Assembly (NCBI GenBank): GCA_017992455.1
Contig: JAGOOP010000014.1
Coordinates: 1 to 34,259, forward strand
DNA length: 34,259 nucleotides
From: Candidatus Omnitrophota bacterium
GTDB lineage: Bacteria; Omnitrophota; Gorgyraeia; Gygaellales; Profunditerraquicolaceae
Direction of reading: 5' to 3'
Numbering within the stretch: the stretch's first letter is position 1; each line of letters begins with the position of its first letter. The translations under genes and the position numbers were made by a program. The notes under the pieces were generated by a model. That model was not told the DNA's origin and searched no databases. It was given only the letters and a program-made list of their open reading frames with translations. Positions 17,978 through 24,960 of this stretch are shown in pieces.

Positions 17978-18022
17978 ATGGCTCAAGCCGCGTTGAAGGC
18001 ACATAAACGGTGTATTGCATAA
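17978..18022 (+). CDS. Possible 14-residue leader peptide
   Basis: ATG at 17978 is preceded by GAGGAG at 17967-17972 with five bases between, a near-ideal ribosome site. The frame encodes MAQAALKAHKRCIA and stops at 18020-18022, two bases before a factor-independent terminator that lies in front of the receiver-AraC gene. This layout (promoter, ribosome site, short peptide, terminator, regulated gene) is that of a leader/attenuator, but the peptide has no run of one amino acid that would name a signal. It could equally be a small RNA of about 100 bases (17948-18047) that only happens to contain an open frame. Confidence 0.4.
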   Translation: MAQAALKAHKRCIA

Positions 18023-18047: not shown

Positions 18048-18062
18048 ATTGAAAGGCGGCAT

Positions 18063-18821
18063 ATGCCGGATACGATACTGATAGTCGATGACGATGCGGA
18101 GTTCCGGTCCGAGCTGCATTCCGCGCTGGACTGTTACGACGTGATCGAGGCCGCGAGCGGCAAAGAGGCCATGTATCTGCTGCGCAAGCCGAACCAGATA
18201 GACCTGGTGCTTCTTGACGTCATGATGCCCGGATCGAACGGGACCGATGTCCTGCGGGAAATGAAACGGTATTCGCCGAGGCTGGCGATCGTGATGCTGA
18301 CCGGGTACAGCTCCAAGGACGTCGCTGTCGAAGCGTTGAAGGGGCATGCGGACGAATATATCGAAAAGCCGCTTGATATCGATAAGACAAAGGAGATCAT
18401 TGAGCGGCTGCTTCAGGCGCGGCGCGGCGAATCGGATGCGGCCGCGTGCGGCCGGGACGGCAAGATCGGCAAGGTCAAGCGTTTCATCGAGCGGAATGCT
18501 CAGAAAAAGGTAACGCTCAAGGATGCGGCCCAGGCGGTATTCTTGAGCCCGAAATATCTGAGCAGGATATTCAAGCAGGAAACCGGCATGGGTTTCAACG
18601 AATATAAGCTGAAATTAATGATCGAACGCGCGAAGGACCTGCTTGCCGGCACGGGTTTTACCATCAGCCAGATCTCGGACCGGCTGGGGTATCAGAACGC
18701 TGAATCGTTCATACGGATATTCGAAAAAATGACCGGGATGGCTCCGACCCGGTTCCGCATTCAATGCAGGCTTCGCAAGCAGAGGCGCCGTCACCGCGTT
18801 CCCGCACGCAAACGCGCGTAA
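18063..18821 (+). CDS. Response regulator, receiver plus AraC-type DNA-binding domain
   Basis: 252 residues from ATG 18063, with GAAAGGCGG just upstream. The receiver domain (1-120) is complete: acidic triad D9-D10-D11, phosphorylation site D52 in LVLLDVMMPG, T80 and K102. Residues about 140-235 are an AraC/XylS double helix-turn-helix (LKDAAQAVFLSPKYLSRIFK and ISQISDRLGYQNAESFIRIF). It should bind DNA when phosphorylated, most likely by the PAS kinase encoded seven bases downstream. The C-terminus ends in a very basic tail (RKQRRRHRVPARKRA). Whether the leader unit upstream controls it is an open question. Confidence 0.9.
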   Translation: MPDTILIVDDDAEFRSELHSALDCYDVIEAASGKEAMYLLRKPNQIDLVLLDVMMPGSNGTDVLREMKRYSPRLAIVMLTGYSSKDVAVEALKGHADEYIEKPLDIDKTKEIIERLLQARRGESDAAACGRDGKIGKVKRFIERNAQKKVTLKDAAQAVFLSPKYLSRIFKQETGMGFNEYKLKLMIERAKDLLAGTGFTISQISDRLGYQNAESFIRIFEKMTGMAPTRFRIQCRLRKQRRRHRVPARKRA

Positions 18822-18827
18822 ACGGAA

Positions 18828-21533
18828 ATGAAAAAACACGAGAAGAACGGCTGGTTCCGGGTCAGTGACCATTCCGAGCTTATCAGGGAGCTGACGACGC
18901 TTCTCGACGTCGAGCGGGACACCATCATCATACGGGACATGGAAGGCAGGATCGTTTTCTGGAACCGGGGAGCCGAAGAGGTGTTCGGCTGGACACGGGA
19001 ACAGGCGGTCGGACGCATGTATCGCGACCTGAAAGAGGTCCGGTATCCGTGTCCCGAAGCCGATATCATGCGCGAACTCGGCGCGAACGGGCGGTGGGAA
19101 GGGGAGATCTCCTACCTGCCTGAAGGCAGGCCTGCGGTTATCCTGGAAAGCAGGCTGTGCGTGCAGAAGGACAAAAAAGGGTCGCCGGTGGCGATCCTGG
19201 AAATAGATAACAATATCACGGGCCGCAGGAACGCGGAAGCGGCCTTGCGCGCCAGCGAAGAGCATTACCGGTTCCTTGCCGATAATATATCGGACCTGGT
19301 CGGCATCATCTCGCCTGAAATGCATTTCACCTTTGTCAGCAATAACGCATCGCGCATCGTGGGGTTCACCGCGGAAGAGGTGATGCGCAGGGACCTCAAG
19401 GGTATGCTCACTCCCGCATCATTCGAGCGGGCGCGGCAGATCATCGCCCGCCAGCTTGCCATGGACCGCGAGCCCGGTCAGGACCCCGACCGTTCTTTTC
19501 TCATCGAGGCAGAGATCGATTCGAAGAACGGGGTCCGCCGGCTTTTTGAGATGAAGGTGAATTTCATGCGCAATGCCGACGGCGCAATCACCGGGCTTCT
19601 GGGCATCGGCCGCGACATCACCGACCACAGGACGATCGAACGGGCCCTGCGGGAGAACGAGGAGCGGTATCATTCGTTCGTGAGCAATTTCCCCGGCATC
19701 GCCTACCGCGCTTTGATCGACGGAACGGTCCTGTTCTTCGAAGGCCGTGTCGAGGAGATCACCGGGTATACGGGCGGGGATTTTACGGCCGGTACCGCGG
19801 CGTGGCAGAAGATGATATTCCCCGCTGATTGGCAGAGGATCGAGCCTTCCTGGGAGCAACTGCACACCGTGCCCGATACTTCCCTGGAGCGCGAATACAG
19901 GATCATCCGCAAGGATGGGCAGGTACGGTGGGTCCGTGAGCATATCCAGAATAAGAACGGCGATGAGGGGAGGCCGGAGTTCGTCGAAGGGATCATTTAT
20001 GATATTACCGACCGGGTCAGATCGAACGAGGAACAGATGTGGCTTGCGTCGTTCCCCGAACTGGACCCGAATCCCGTGGTTGAGGTTTCGGTTGACGGCA
20101 GGATCTATTATATGTCCCCGGCGGCGCTTGCACGGTTCCCCGATATGGAAAGCAAAGGCGCCAAACATCCGTACCTGGCCGGTTTACGGTGGGTCAGTGA
20201 CCGTATCAGGGACGATAAACGGCAGTTCTTCGACCGCGAGGTCGATATCGACGGCAAGTGGTATGCCCAGAAGATCTTTTCCGTTGAGAATAACATGCGC
20301 CTGCGTATCTACGGCGCCGACATCACCGAGAGCAAGCTCATTGCCCAGCGGCTGCGCGCGGTCAACCAGCAGCTCATGGATATCATTGAATTCCTGCCGG
20401 ATGCGACGTTCGTCATAGACCGGCATAAACGCATTATCGCCTGGAACCGCGCGCTTGAAGAGATGACCGGAGTGAAGAAAGAGGATGTCATCGGCAAGGG
20501 CGAACACGAATACGCTGTCCCGTTCTACGGCAAGCGCCGGCCGATCATGATCGATCTTATTTTCAAAGCGGACAAAGAGATCGAGTCCCGGTATACCTAT
20601 GTAAAGCGCGCGAACAATTGCCTGGTTTCCGAGGTTTTTGTGCCGCGGCTCAATAAAGGCAAAGGGCTGTTTGTCTGGGTCAAGGTCGCTCCGCTGTATG
20701 ACGAGAACGGCGTTATCGTCGGCGCTATCGAATCCGTGCGCGATATAACCGAACACAAGGAAGCGGAGGCCATCCTGCGGCAGGACCGGCAGGTATTCGA
20801 GCAGATGGTCAAGAGCAAGACCGAGGAATTACTGCGCGTTCAAAAGGAACTGGCGGATTCGAAGCATCTTTCGGAGATCGGAGCGCTTGCGGCCACCATC
20901 GCGCATGAACTGCGCAATCCGCTCGCCGCGATCAGGACTGCCGCATACAATATCCGCCGGAAAGCGGAGAACGTCAAACTGACGAGCCATCTCGATAATA
21001 TCGACAAAAAAGTCCTCGAGAGCGACCAGATCATCAACAATCTTCTGTCGTATTCGCGCATCAAGACGCCTCATTTGGAACCGGTCAGGATCCACACGAT
21101 CCTCGAGGAATGCCTGAAAGCCGCCGCGGACCGTTTCCCGAAATACAAGGTCGAGGTTCGCATGAAATGCACCTGCAAAAAGGACGACGTGATACGCGCC
21201 GATCCCGTGCATATGAAAGAGCTGTTCAATAATATCCTGAACAACGCGTATGAAGCGTTCGCCGAAAAGAAAGGCGTCATCAGCATCAAGGCGGATTATA
21301 AGCCGCGCAGCACGTATACCGTTTCATTCAGCGACACCGGCGGGGGGATCAGCCCGGATATCCTTGAAAAGATATCCCGGCCGTTCTTCACGACAAAATC
21401 AAAAGGCACGGGGCTCGGATTGACCGTATGCCATCAGCTGGTCGCCTTGCATAACGGCTCGATGCAGATCAAGAGCGATCCGGGTAAAGGCACCACGGTC
21501 ATTGTTGTCATTCCGACGGGGGACGGGGGATGA
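18828..21533 (+). CDS. Cytosolic multi-PAS sensor histidine kinase
   Basis: 901 residues without transmembrane helices, so a soluble sensor. About five PAS domains in a row can be read: roughly 10-130 (IIIRDMEGRIVFWNRGAEEV), 140-265, 280-395, 400-510 (more divergent) and 515-645 (FVIDRHKRIIAWNRALEEM), several ending in the D-I-T motif of PAC segments. A helical linker leads to the dimerisation domain with phospho-accepting H693 in HELRNPLAA, then an ATPase domain with N box (ELFNNILNNAYEAF), G1 (DTGGGI), F (RPFFTTKSKG) and G2 (GTGLGLTV) motifs. All catalytic motifs are present. The signal is unknown. It overlaps the next receiver gene in an ATGA junction, so that receiver is a likely phosphotransfer partner. 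Confidence 0.93.
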   Translation: MKKHEKNGWFRVSDHSELIRELTTLLDVERDTIIIRDMEGRIVFWNRGAEEVFGWTREQAVGRMYRDLKEVRYPCPEADIMRELGANGRWEGEISYLPEGRPAVILESRLCVQKDKKGSPVAILEIDNNITGRRNAEAALRASEEHYRFLADNISDLVGIISPEMHFTFVSNNASRIVGFTAEEVMRRDLKGMLTPASFERARQIIARQLAMDREPGQDPDRSFLIEAEIDSKNGVRRLFEMKVNFMRNADGAITGLLGIGRDITDHRTIERALRENEERYHSFVSNFPGIAYRALIDGTVLFFEGRVEEITGYTGGDFTAGTAAWQKMIFPADWQRIEPSWEQLHTVPDTSLEREYRIIRKDGQVRWVREHIQNKNGDEGRPEFVEGIIYDITDRVRSNEEQMWLASFPELDPNPVVEVSVDGRIYYMSPAALARFPDMESKGAKHPYLAGLRWVSDRIRDDKRQFFDREVDIDGKWYAQKIFSVENNMRLRIYGADITESKLIAQRLRAVNQQLMDIIEFLPDATFVIDRHKRIIAWNRALEEMTGVKKEDVIGKGEHEYAVPFYGKRRPIMIDLIFKADKEIESRYTYVKRANNCLVSEVFVPRLNKGKGLFVWVKVAPLYDENGVIVGAIESVRDITEHKEAEAILRQDRQVFEQMVKSKTEELLRVQKELADSKHLSEIGALAATIAHELRNPLAAIRTAAYNIRRKAENVKLTSHLDNIDKKVLESDQIINNLLSYSRIKTPHLEPVRIHTILEECLKAAADRFPKYKVEVRMKCTCKKDDVIRADPVHMKELFNNILNNAYEAFAEKKGVISIKADYKPRSTYTVSFSDTGGGISPDILEKISRPFFTTKSKGTGLGLTVCHQLVALHNGSMQIKSDPGKGTTVIVVIPTGDGG

Positions 21534-21922
21534 GCGCGCGGATCCTGCTGGTCGATGATGATGAGGAGATCTGCGAGGAGATCGGCGGTCTTCTCAAAGA
21601 TACGGGGTTCAAGGTCGCGTCCGTCCATGAAGGCCGCGCCGCGGTCAAGCTCCTCGATGAGAAGAAATTCGACCTTTTGATCCTCGACCTGAAGGTCCCC
21701 GGGATCCCGGGGATCGATATACTGCGCCATGTCAAAGGCAAACGCATGCCCCTCAAGGTCCTCGTGGTGACCGGCAAACCGGTGAAAGACATGTATGAGA
21801 ACGACGATTCGGCCATACCCGACGATCCGGAGCAGTCGGAACTGCTTCATCTGGCAGACGGGTTTGTCGGCAAACCGTTCGACGTGGAAATATTGCTCGC
21901 CCGCATCAAGACGCTCCTCTAA
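21530..21922 (+). CDS. Single-domain response regulator with an acidic insertion
   Basis: 130 residues, a receiver domain with no output domain. The acidic cluster (LLVDDDEEI), phosphorylation Asp in LLILDLKVPG, Thr in VVTGKP and Lys in FVGKPFD are present. The distance from that Thr to the conserved Lys is 34 residues instead of about 22, because of an acidic segment (YENDDSAIPDDPEQSE) in the region of helix 4. That face normally makes partner contacts, so specificity may be changed. The start overlaps the stop of the PAS kinase gene and follows a G-rich ribosome site, indicating coupling to that kinase. Confidence 0.88.
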   Translation: MSARILLVDDDEEICEEIGGLLKDTGFKVASVHEGRAAVKLLDEKKFDLLILDLKVPGIPGIDILRHVKGKRMPLKVLVVTGKPVKDMYENDDSAIPDDPEQSELLHLADGFVGKPFDVEILLARIKTLL

Positions 21923-22097
21923 AAAGGCATCGTGTATCCCCCCAGGTAGAAAAAAGTCAGTAAAAAGGAGAATCCCCCCATCGACGAAAACCGGGCCGTG
22001 TTTATAATATTATTGCGGGAGAAAAGATGAGTGCGCCGATGAGCCGGGCACGTTATGGGTTTGTTCCTTTATAATCCCGCCGAAAAAAGGATTGCAC
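21923..22097 (+). other. Intergenic region with C-tract repeat and possible promoter
   Basis: 175 bases between two receiver genes. ATCCCCCCA occurs twice in direct orientation (21936-21944 and 21972-21980), 36 bases apart. TCGACG at 21981-21986 and TATAAT at 22003-22008, 16 bases apart, form a weak promoter candidate. A 15-codon frame (22027-22074, MSAPMSRARYGFVPL) with GGGAG at 22017-22021 follows, and a second TATAAT at 22070-22075 overlaps its stop but has no -35 partner. No terminator is evident. Confidence 0.4.
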
Positions 22098-22487
22098 ATG
22101 ACTGCAAAGCGGATACTCGTGGTAGACGACGATGCCGAGTTCCTGCAGGAACTGCAGGAAACGCTCCATTTGAGCGGCTATGAGGTCGACTCTCTTGATA
22201 AGGCCAATTCAGTCGTGCGCTTCGCTGCCGATAAACATCCCGATCTTATCCTGCTGGACCTGAAGATGGCAGGTATGACGGGTTTTGAGGTCATCAAGGG
22301 CCTGCGCCGTACGCCGCAGACGTCGAAGATCCCCATCATAGCCATGTCCGGGTATTTCAGCGAGCGCCAGGACTGCACGCTCTTCGATTTTTTTCAGATC
22401 AAAAAATGCCTTGAAAAGCCGTTCCATCCGCTGGACGTCATATCCCATATCGAAAGCACATTAAAAGATGCCGCCATCTCGGCCTGA
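22098..22487 (+). CDS. Single-domain response regulator (paralog A)
   Basis: 129 residues from ATG 22098, with AAAAAAGGA six bases upstream; an in-frame TTG at 22092 is less likely. Complete receiver site: VVDDDAEF, phospho-Asp in LILLDLKMAG, Ser in place of the usual Thr (IAMSGYF), and Lys in CLEKPFHPLDV. No output domain. It is clearly related to the receiver at 23612-23989: both share VDDD-x-EF, ETL-x-LSGYEV, LDLKM, GFEV and a KPF-x-PLDVI ending. The two flank the degenerate kinase gene, as expected from a local duplication. Confidence 0.88.
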   Translation: MTAKRILVVDDDAEFLQELQETLHLSGYEVDSLDKANSVVRFAADKHPDLILLDLKMAGMTGFEVIKGLRRTPQTSKIPIIAMSGYFSERQDCTLFDFFQIKKCLEKPFHPLDVISHIESTLKDAAISA

Positions 22488-22536
22488 ACCGCTTCCGTGC
22501 GCATATCCTGTCCGCCGCTTTGCCGCAGGGCTCTGC

Positions 22537-23595
22537 ATGAATGACCTGACCAGGAGCTTTCTTAAAGGTTCGTTAAAGAATCTGATGAAGATGCTCGAAG
22601 CGGGGGCAGGGGCTTTGTTCCTGTTCAATCCGGACGCCGGGTCATTGGTGCTGGAATCTTTTCTGGGCGGCTCTGCCGACAGGGGGGGGCGGTTCTTCAG
22701 GCTCGTGCGCAGGCCCTGTATTTCCATTCCGCTGTTTGCCTCCGGGGAGTTTTTTGGTTTGATCAAGATCGGGACGCGGCCGGACGGAACCCCGTTCTCT
22801 GCGCAGGACCTGCGTTTTGCGAACGCATTGTGCGGGCATATATGCAGGATCGTCGAGGATCAGACGCGTTTTACCTGTCAACGCAGCGGCCTCGATCGCG
22901 CCATACAGGAGAAGAGCTCTCTTGAGAAATTCGCCGTTGTCGGCAGCCTTGCCGCCGGCATTGCGGGCAGGGTCAACAGTCCGCTTGACGGAGCGCTTCG
23001 GTACGCCGGCCTTGTCCGGGCTCACCTGGACAACGATGAGCGCCGTAAGGAATATCTTGCACTGATCAAACAGGGGCTTGAGCGCATAGCGGATATCACC
23101 GCATCGCTGGCAGGCTTGTACGGCCCTTCCTGCGGCTGTCCGGACCGTGAGGGATCCGTTGATATCCATCAACTGATCGATGAGGCGGTCGATGTTTTTT
23201 CTTCCTCATGCAAAGACACGATCAGGATCATTGTTCAGTATGACGGGCCGCTGCGGGTCAGGTCCGACCAGGCCGTGCGCCATGTTTTTACCAATATCAT
23301 CAAGAACGCGATCGAGGCCATGCCGGACGGAGGGACGCTGACCATTTCTTCGGAGGTCAAGCAGGCGGGGCTGCGGATCGTTTTCCAGGATACCGGCAGC
23401 GGCATAACGGCCGAGCATCAGCGGAAGATCTTCGAGCCGTTCTTTACGACAAAGCCCGAAGGCGCGGGCAGCGGGTTCGGCCTGGCGTTGTGTAAGGATA
23501 TCGTAGAACGTTATGGAGGACGCATCGGCGTAAAAAGCGCACCCGGACAGGGAAGCGCGTTTACGATCCTTTTCCCCAGGTCCATGCTCGCATAA
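22537..23595 (+). CDS. Histidine-kinase-like protein lacking the phospho-accepting histidine
   Basis: 352 residues from ATG 22537; an in-frame ATG at 22468 would add 23 residues and overlap the previous gene by 20 bases, and neither start has a strong ribosome site. Residues 1-115 look like a small GAF-type sensor domain. Residues about 130-195 are the dimerisation helix pair, but where related kinases read AHEINNPL this one reads A-G144-R-V-N-S-P-L: the histidine is Gly (codon GGC at 22966-22968) and the next Glu is Arg. The ATPase domain is intact, with TNIIKNAIEAM (N box), DTGSGI (G1), FEPFFTTKPEG (F) and GSGFGLALCKDIV (G2). It may bind ATP without autophosphorylating, or work with another kinase as a heterodimer. 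Confidence 0.85.
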   Translation: MNDLTRSFLKGSLKNLMKMLEAGAGALFLFNPDAGSLVLESFLGGSADRGGRFFRLVRRPCISIPLFASGEFFGLIKIGTRPDGTPFSAQDLRFANALCGHICRIVEDQTRFTCQRSGLDRAIQEKSSLEKFAVVGSLAAGIAGRVNSPLDGALRYAGLVRAHLDNDERRKEYLALIKQGLERIADITASLAGLYGPSCGCPDREGSVDIHQLIDEAVDVFSSSCKDTIRIIVQYDGPLRVRSDQAVRHVFTNIIKNAIEAMPDGGTLTISSEVKQAGLRIVFQDTGSGITAEHQRKIFEPFFTTKPEGAGSGFGLALCKDIVERYGGRIGVKSAPGQGSAFTILFPRSMLA

Positions 23596-23611
23596 AATAA
23601 CAGGGGGTTTT

Positions 23612-23989
23612 ATGTCACGAGGACGGGTGTTGATCGTCGACGACGATAAGGAATTCAGGGAGGAGCTGAGGGAAACACTTGACCTGTCCGGCTATGAAGT
23701 CATCGAGGTTGAGGACGCCCGCGTTGTGCAGGATACCGCCAGCCGCACGAGCCCCGACGTGATCGTCCTCGATCTGAAAATGGACGATATGAACGGGTTC
23801 GAAGTGGCGGAAGAGTTAAAGCGTTTTACCACGACCGTCGGCATTCCGGTCATCGCCATGACCGGTTTTTTCAGGGAAGACGAGCATGCGCCGCTTATGA
23901 ACATCTGCGGGATCACCACATGCATCAAAAAACCCTTCAATCCGCTTGACGTCATCGCCGCGATCGAAGCGGCGATGCGCGGGCGCTGA
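23612..23989 (+). CDS. Single-domain response regulator (paralog B)
   Basis: 125 residues; a G-rich ribosome site (AGGGGG) precedes the ATG. Receiver residues are complete: VDDDKEF, phospho-Asp in VIVLDLKMDD, Thr in IAMTGFF, Lys in CIKKPFNPLDV. There is no output domain, so it signals through a partner or acts as a phosphate sink. Strong resemblance along the whole length to the receiver at 22098-22487 points to duplication, with the kinase-like gene caught between the copies. Confidence 0.9.
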   Translation: MSRGRVLIVDDDKEFREELRETLDLSGYEVIEVEDARVVQDTASRTSPDVIVLDLKMDDMNGFEVAEELKRFTTTVGIPVIAMTGFFREDEHAPLMNICGITTCIKKPFNPLDVIAAIEAAMRGR

Positions 23990-24057: not shown

Positions 24058-24960
24058 ATGGAACGCGAGAAGATCATTGTCGTTCAGGCAGGCCCGTATG
24101 TCAGCAAGACGATGAATGAAAGTCTCAAGGATTACGATGTTTATAACCTGGAATCATACGATAAGGCGCAGGAGCTGTACAAGAGCGGGAAATTTCATAC
24201 GATCGTGACGGAACTCGATCCCAAAGAAGGCAATGCGATCGAAATGGTCACCAAGCTTCAGGCCCATGACATCGATGTCCCCATTATCGTGGTGACCACG
24301 CATGATTCAGTCCCGGTCGCGGTGGAGGCCATGAAAGCAGGGGCGTACGATTATATCACTACGCCGTTCAATCTTGACGAGCTGCAGCTCGTGGTCCAGC
24401 ATGCGCTCGAGCGCAAACGGCTCAAGGAAGAGGTCAAGGAAAAGAGGCATTTCCAGGAAATGGCGATCATGGACGGCCTGACCATGATATATAACCGCGC
24501 GTATTTCGACGAATTGATCCGCAGGGAAGAGGACCGCGCGCGGCGGTATCCGCAGAAATTCTCGCTGCTCATGATCGATCTGGACGATTTCAAGAAATAC
24601 AACGATTCCTACGGGCATCCTGCGGGGGACTCGATCCTGAAACATGTCGCCCAGCTTTTTCAAAGGACGATCCGTACCTCCGACTTTGTCGCCCGGTACG
24701 GCGGCGAGGAATTCGTCATCATTACCCCTCATACGGATAAGATCCACGCGTCGGTCCTTGCCTCGCGGCTGTTGTCGATGGTCAATAAATCCATCATCCA
24801 GGTCGACGAGAAGACGCCGCTTTCGGTGACGGTCAGCATAGGGCTTGCGACATTCGGCGACGACGCCTCTGCGAGGGATGCGCTTATCCAGAGCGCCGAT
24901 AAAGCGCTGTATCAGGCAAAACAGCTGGGTAAGAACCGGGTATGTCTTTTTGGGACATGA
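24058..24960 (+). CDS. Diguanylate cyclase with degenerate receiver domain
   Basis: 300 residues with a strong ribosome site (GAGGAGGG). The C-terminal GGDEF domain makes cyclic di-GMP from two GTP: G215-G-E-E-F219 active site, and R206-T-S-D209 five residues before it, the inhibitory product-binding site, so feedback control is expected. The N-terminal 120 residues have the receiver fold pattern (VPIIVVTTHDSVPVAVEAMK, AGAYDYITTPFNLDEL), but the acidic pair is Q10-A11, the phospho-Asp position reads Glu (E52 in VTELDP), and the conserved Lys is Thr (T102). It cannot be phosphorylated in the normal way and may be locked by the Glu or respond to something else. Confidence 0.9.
   Translation: MEREKIIVVQAGPYVSKTMNESLKDYDVYNLESYDKAQELYKSGKFHTIVTELDPKEGNAIEMVTKLQAHDIDVPIIVVTTHDSVPVAVEAMKAGAYDYITTPFNLDELQLVVQHALERKRLKEEVKEKRHFQEMAIMDGLTMIYNRAYFDELIRREEDRARRYPQKFSLLMIDLDDFKKYNDSYGHPAGDSILKHVAQLFQRTIRTSDFVARYGGEEFVIITPHTDKIHASVLASRLLSMVNKSIIQVDEKTPLSVTVSIGLATFGDDASARDALIQSADKALYQAKQLGKNRVCLFGT

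Follow-up and report, generated by a model that had tools for sequence, protein, structure and literature searches.

A histidine kinase-like protein with a kept ATP site and a glycine in place of its phospho-accepting histidine, encoded between two paralogous receivers in Candidatus Omnitrophota

Among the signalling genes of a 34,259-nucleotide stretch of DNA from a Candidatus Omnitrophota bacterium (contig JAGOOP010000014.1 of assembly GCA_017992455.1; hereafter, the window), one encodes a histidine kinase-like protein, here called HKL, which stands between two stand-alone receivers, RR2 and RR3. By its sequence HKL is a pseudo-histidine kinase, with the phospho-acceptor His missing and a glycine (Gly144) at its place in both species of the genus. 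The reading that we favour, with moderate confidence, is that of a retooled pseudo-histidine kinase, which would tune RR2 and RR3 by binding or sequestration, by dephosphorylating them slowly, or by both; the PAS kinase of the same cluster would supply the phosphate.

The initial annotation placed the gene at 22537-23595, an open reading frame translated into 352 amino acids (P0001). Frame and translation are confirmed, but the start probably lies at 22468, since the only other genome of the genus available for comparison (G001) has an ATG there and an ATT at the codon matching 22537. The gene would then span 22468-23595 (plus strand, as all window features below), encode 375 amino acids and overlap RR2 by 20 nt. 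It comprises a truncated GAF region, a degenerate DHp and an intact HATPase_c or CA domain (23266-23595) with its N, G1, F and G2 boxes. In Pfam searches, the HATPase_c match reaches 95-97 bits, the sixth best of the 20 HATPase matches in its own genome (G000). The HisKA match stays at 14 bits, under the 26.9 cut-off, as expected with a degenerate DHp; the GAF matches are partial and also under cut-off, and no PAS domain is matched in the protein. A DHp-CA profile scores HKL at 208 bits, and the profile scores, together with fold matches to histidine kinase structures, give it the DHp plus HATPase_c architecture of this family. The GAF core counts 19 residues in the alignment versus 54 in the homologs, with the 35 missing residues falling between two strands. 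In the AlphaFold model, the CA domain is confident (pLDDT mostly 82-98), the two long DHp helices less so, and the GAF remnant is of low confidence; the best fold matches are ordinary histidine kinases such as ZraS and KinB, with DivL ranking lower. Among homologs with a named source, the best (L013, 31% identity) comes from a Candidatus Omnitrophota record.

The degenerate H-box of HKL occupies positions 22966-22980, in a region that reads VGSLAAGIAGRVNSPLDG. As the initial annotation had described, codon 22966-22968 is GGC and gives Gly144 where the phospho-accepting His is expected, and the following codon, AGG, gives Arg145 for Glu. To these changes at H and H+1 we add one at H+4, where codon 22978-22980 (AGT) encodes Ser148 in place of Asn. 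In an alignment with 47 other histidine kinases, positions 144 and 148 are His and Asn, respectively, in at least 90% of the rows; a Ser at H+4 is not confined to HKL, being present in 7 of a sample of 200 His-bearing kinases. The first DHp helix holds no genus-specific substitute His, and His 163, 211 and 249, common to both species, are found in many His-bearing homologs as well. The retention of four ATP-binding motifs, claimed from the sequence at the outset, holds fully: HKL keeps all 13 columns that are invariant among the 48 histidine kinases, which include N253 and N257 (N box), D285, G287 and G289 (G1), P301 and K306 (F region), and G311, G313 and G315 (G2). Within the GxGLGL motif of G2, the Leu is Phe in HKL and Ile in the G001 ortholog. 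Compared with bifunctional HisKA kinases, which carry His, an acidic H+1 and Asn or Thr at H+4, HKL departs from the pattern in its DHp and conforms to it in its N, G1, F and G2 boxes, the replaced Leu apart.

Whether the glycine is fixed could be checked in G001, so that the Gly form is known from two genomes. The locus has the same order there (RR-AraC, PAS kinase, RR1, RR2, HKL, RR3, RR-GGDEF, hydrolase, glpK and glpA, the names of the last three taken solely from similarity to the window). Its HKL shares 66% identity with that of the window and has an H-box reading GIVGQINSPL. H, H+1 and H+4 are all altered in both species, and the Gly codon is GGC in both genes, with different neighbouring codons. 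Between the two, dN is 0.25 and dS about 1.7, which is saturated, giving by NG86 count a dN/dS of about 0.15 or lower. The dN by domain is 0.16 for CA and 0.23 for both DHp and truncated GAF; judged from these values, purifying selection is acting on all domains, with RR3 and RR-GGDEF much more conserved still (dN about 0.05). No stop or frameshift interrupts HKL in either genome. The genus pair has retained 46 of the 67 columns that are near-invariant among the 20 His-bearing homologs of our first alignment, and the losses fall on GAF (9/17) and DHp (9/22) versus CA (3/28). The corresponding Fisher test (18/39 vs 3/28, p = 0.003) is a guide only, as columns are non-independent and the pair has a common ancestry. 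The shared Gly, the low dN/dS and the uninterrupted frames support the earlier suggestion that a new role was selected for, as opposed to decay. That suggestion was to be given up if relatives had His at this site and the gene itself frameshifts or stops: His-bearing orthologs do occupy the same locus in related genera, but the gene is free of such lesions.

The receivers flanking HKL are RR2 (22098-22487) and RR3 (23612-23989), which share 49% identity over 123 amino acids and are paralogs, as first noted; a more distant stand-alone receiver, RR1 (21530-21922), is 30-31% identical to either over 77-79 amino acids. The DD, D, T/S and K residues of the phosphorylation site are intact in all of them, and not in the neighbouring RR-GGDEF protein. 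The tight packing of RR2, HKL and RR3 (a 20-nt overlap and a 16-nt gap) and a promoter-like TCGACG-16-TATAAT upstream of RR2 (21981-22008) are weak evidence for a single transcription unit. The conserved first gene of the cluster encodes a response regulator with an AraC-type DNA-binding domain (18060-18821; the frame opens at 18015 and the start is approximate), followed by a multi-PAS histidine kinase with its His present (18828-21533; AATIAHELRNPLA). Downstream of RR3 lies a diguanylate cyclase (GGEEF) with a pseudo-receiver (24058-24960), in which DD is QA, the phospho-Asp is Glu and the Lys is Thr. These changes are the same in G001, and many homologs in the class share the Glu at the acceptor position.

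In the class at large, a typical cluster comprises RR-AraC, a PAS kinase whose H-box resembles AATVAHELRNPLA, a single RR3-like receiver and, in many cases, RR1, RR3 being the class-wide type of the ancestral cluster, and it has no HKL. The combination of HKL, RR2 and RR3 was seen only in the window genus and in two further genomes, G036 and G040. In G039, of the same genus as G040, the cluster (L208) has a single RR2-type receiver and lacks HKL and RR3, which may have been lost together; the HKL module is thus dispensable in a relative. In G036, the c-di-GMP gene after RR3 (L133:8131-9798) encodes a GGDEF-HD protein, weakly matched by PAS as well, in place of the pseudo-receiver GGDEF protein of the window.

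Homologs of HKL were searched in 108 genomes of the family, 128 of the order and a sample of 384 in the class. The closest are GAF kinases of about 400 amino acids, with about 34-44% identity over GAF-DHp-CA. Nearly all those whose neighbours were checked adjoin an NtrC-like regulator of about 475 amino acids, one of which Pfam confirmed as receiver-sigma54-HTH, and we derive HKL from a GAF histidine kinase of this sigma54-regulator-linked family. Pairs of this family (for instance L012, L093-L107, L121-L122 and L306-L325) differ from HKL in that their kinases have His and Glu in all cases read, a full-length GAF where that region is present, and no place between receivers. Across the class, 40 of the 43 homologs read have His-Glu, including all 39 outside the receiver locus. 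The three others all belong to the locus, namely HKL of the window (GR), its G001 ortholog (GQ) and that of G040 (HQ), whereas the fourth embedded ortholog, from G036, is HE; another 20 homologs read across the class gave no further Gly form. The G036 and G040 orthologs share with HKL the locus and the position between RR2 and RR3, but they keep the His, and in G036 also a full-length GAF.

In the tree, the four embedded proteins form one group (support 90/81), within which those of G036 and G040 are sisters (91/81); a like sister relation, with respect to G001, holds for the paralogs that G036 and G039 have outside the locus. The stem branch of HKL measures 1.57 changes per column. The G040 protein, with Asn at H+4, is predicted to be kinase-dead, because E to Q at H+1 abolishes kinase activity in CrdS. 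Given the G036-G040 sister topology, the H+1 acid would have been lost twice, whereas a G040 protein sister to the window genus would imply a single loss; its branch is long (1.55) and its composition odd, which leaves the double loss at likely. Within the receiver locus, kinase function has probably been lost, perhaps twice, with the ATP site kept.

With the acceptor His absent, autophosphorylation on His would be lost, and no phosphotransfer could pass through the DHp of HKL itself. Judging by its CA domain, its DHp helices and its locus, HKL has most likely kept the ability to dimerise, to bind ATP and to dock on RR2 and RR3; the docking would follow from adjacency and history, and the retention of the ATP residues suggests that the binding of nucleotide is important. 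In the favoured reading, ATP or ADP occupancy would fix the conformation of HKL, and HKL would adjust the supply of phosphorylated receiver, sequestering it and/or dephosphorylating it slowly. The PAS kinase upstream would provide the phosphate; the class-wide cluster has a PAS kinase and an RR3-like receiver but no HKL, so that a kinase other than HKL is available. RR1 to RR3 have no output domain themselves, and the signal would be passed on through the RR-AraC regulator and through c-di-GMP from the adjacent cyclase. Of the two modes, binding is slightly favoured over dephosphorylation, because the phosphatase residue at H+4 has changed from Asn to Ser in both species, although a weak phosphatase activity is possible. 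The three roles put forward by the initial annotation (phosphatase, partner to the PAS kinase upstream, or decoy) are not told apart by the sequence, although the change at H+4 makes a strong phosphatase less likely.

A less probable but still sizeable alternative, which narrows the favoured reading, makes HKL a dedicated phosphatase, devoid of kinase activity and acting mainly on the RR2~P and RR3~P produced by the PAS kinase. Its best precedent is CrdS, whose engineered kinase-dead variants H371A and E372Q resemble HKL at H and H+1. With H371A, the half-life of CrdA~P is 2.6 min, versus 53.5 min without enzyme, and E372Q, G, A and D all retain phosphatase activity, so that only the kinase needs the H+1 acid, and the phosphatase can largely dispense with the His (PMC3510030); a review (PMC12632262) likewise treats the His as non-essential for the HisKA phosphatase. 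In PleC of Caulobacter, as cited in PMC3510030, loss of the His abolished both activities. The G040 form, with HQ and Asn at H+4, would be just such a kinase-minus, phosphatase-plus protein. The CrdS phosphatase, however, requires Asn at H+4, with Thr partly active, Ala, Gln and Asp inactive, and Ser not reported (PMC3510030), and Ser is what both species have. A hydroxyl residue does remain there, and an EnvZ chimera in which the corresponding Thr is changed to Ser stays functional in vivo (PMC4723039), but it has been argued that pseudo-histidine kinases do not in general serve as phosphatases (PMC12632262).

Somewhat further down, we place a reversed flow of information of the kind known from DivL, the pseudo-histidine kinase of Caulobacter (PDB 4q20), which is inactive as a kinase and as a phosphatase but binds DivK~P and has control over CckA (PMC4211667). 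The DHp-CA core of HKL would sense RR~P and control another kinase allosterically, in the simplest case the PAS kinase encoded in the same cluster, and a kinase and stand-alone receivers do adjoin HKL too. Both proteins have a histidine kinase fold with a replaced acceptor (Tyr in DivL, Ala in Magnetospirillum, Gly in HKL) and a stand-alone receiver in their network, and 4q20 matches HKL by sequence (E 2.4e-14, over the CA part only) and by fold. However, DivL has several PAS domains, binds ATP weakly and works without its ATPase domain, whereas HKL has a truncated GAF and no PAS domains, a conserved ATP site in what is its best-conserved part, and a different kinase lineage. The likeness would be limited to the DHp-CA fold, and membership of HKL in the DivL family, with its multiple N-terminal PAS domains, was rejected.

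HKL could also be one subunit of a heterodimer, its intact CA domain phosphorylating in trans a His supplied by the partner kinase, which we consider unlikely. The CA domain is indeed the slowest-evolving part of the protein, and the paralogous kinases ChrS and HrrS can pair (PMC9491836). Yet identity to HKL is only 27-35% for its closest fellow kinases in G000, making mixed dimers improbable; at 30%, a pairing with the PAS kinase is less likely. For a closer GAF-kinase paralog, L012 of G001, no counterpart turned up in G000, whose completeness is 88.8%.

That HKL is a redundant gene under relaxed selection or in early decay, as the long stem branch, the GAF deletion and the absence of HKL from G039 might suggest, is quite improbable and was rejected on the dN/dS and the open frame, with the CA motifs intact and the Gly common to two proteins at 66% identity. 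A sequencing or assembly error, imaginable in two genomes that are probably metagenome assemblies in many contigs, was likewise rejected, the same residue occurring in both amid different codons, and an ordinary kinase phosphorylated elsewhere is hardly more credible, with no new conserved His in the first DHp helix.

Other His-less kinases were met in these searches. The genome of the window has a second one (L291:8569-10557, on G000:C16), with a coiled-coil-like N-terminus and VTGMSQQIMNPLG (H to Q and E to Q); its orthologs in G001 (SQQV) and G036 (GQQM) are likewise His-less, and most of the more distant homologs are HE. Two His-less Paenibacillus kinases (L061:2446-3537, AAGTANIILNPLA, and L055:5837-6928, VAGTANIILNPLA) adjoin matched ones. 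We also noted a HATPase-like match inside a 14,085-codon open frame (G000:C41:7128-7427) and a GGDEF-like match inside one of 70,450 codons (G017:C2:82013-82552); such giant frames are consistent with the phylum Omnitrophota.

Pseudo-histidine kinases are already a recognised kind, the His being missing in 722 of 76,471 HisKA domains sampled, or 0.9% (PMC12632262). Kinase-dead proteins that still signal include ChrS of Corynebacterium, in which the opposite part is broken, a laboratory-evolved frameshift in CA with DHp and His kept (PMC9491836). What makes HKL unusual is that an intact CA domain, a trimmed sensor and His-bearing orthologs at the same locus come together. As a more speculative proposal, which we rate as doubtful, two genera would have lost kinase catalysis independently (E to Q in G040; H to G with E to Q or R in the window genus) with the ATP site kept, giving an ATP-gated receiver-binding protein that cooperates with the pseudo-receiver diguanylate cyclase; if true, this would be a two-component island operating partly without phosphotransfer. 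Few His-less HisKA proteins, themselves about 1% of these domains (PMC12632262), have a traced origin. For HKL, the evolutionary series is unusually clear, comprising the family of origin, an ortholog that bears His at this very locus, an HQ ortholog and the form without His, which makes the order of loss (sensor, H+1, His and H+4) and the purpose retained directly testable.
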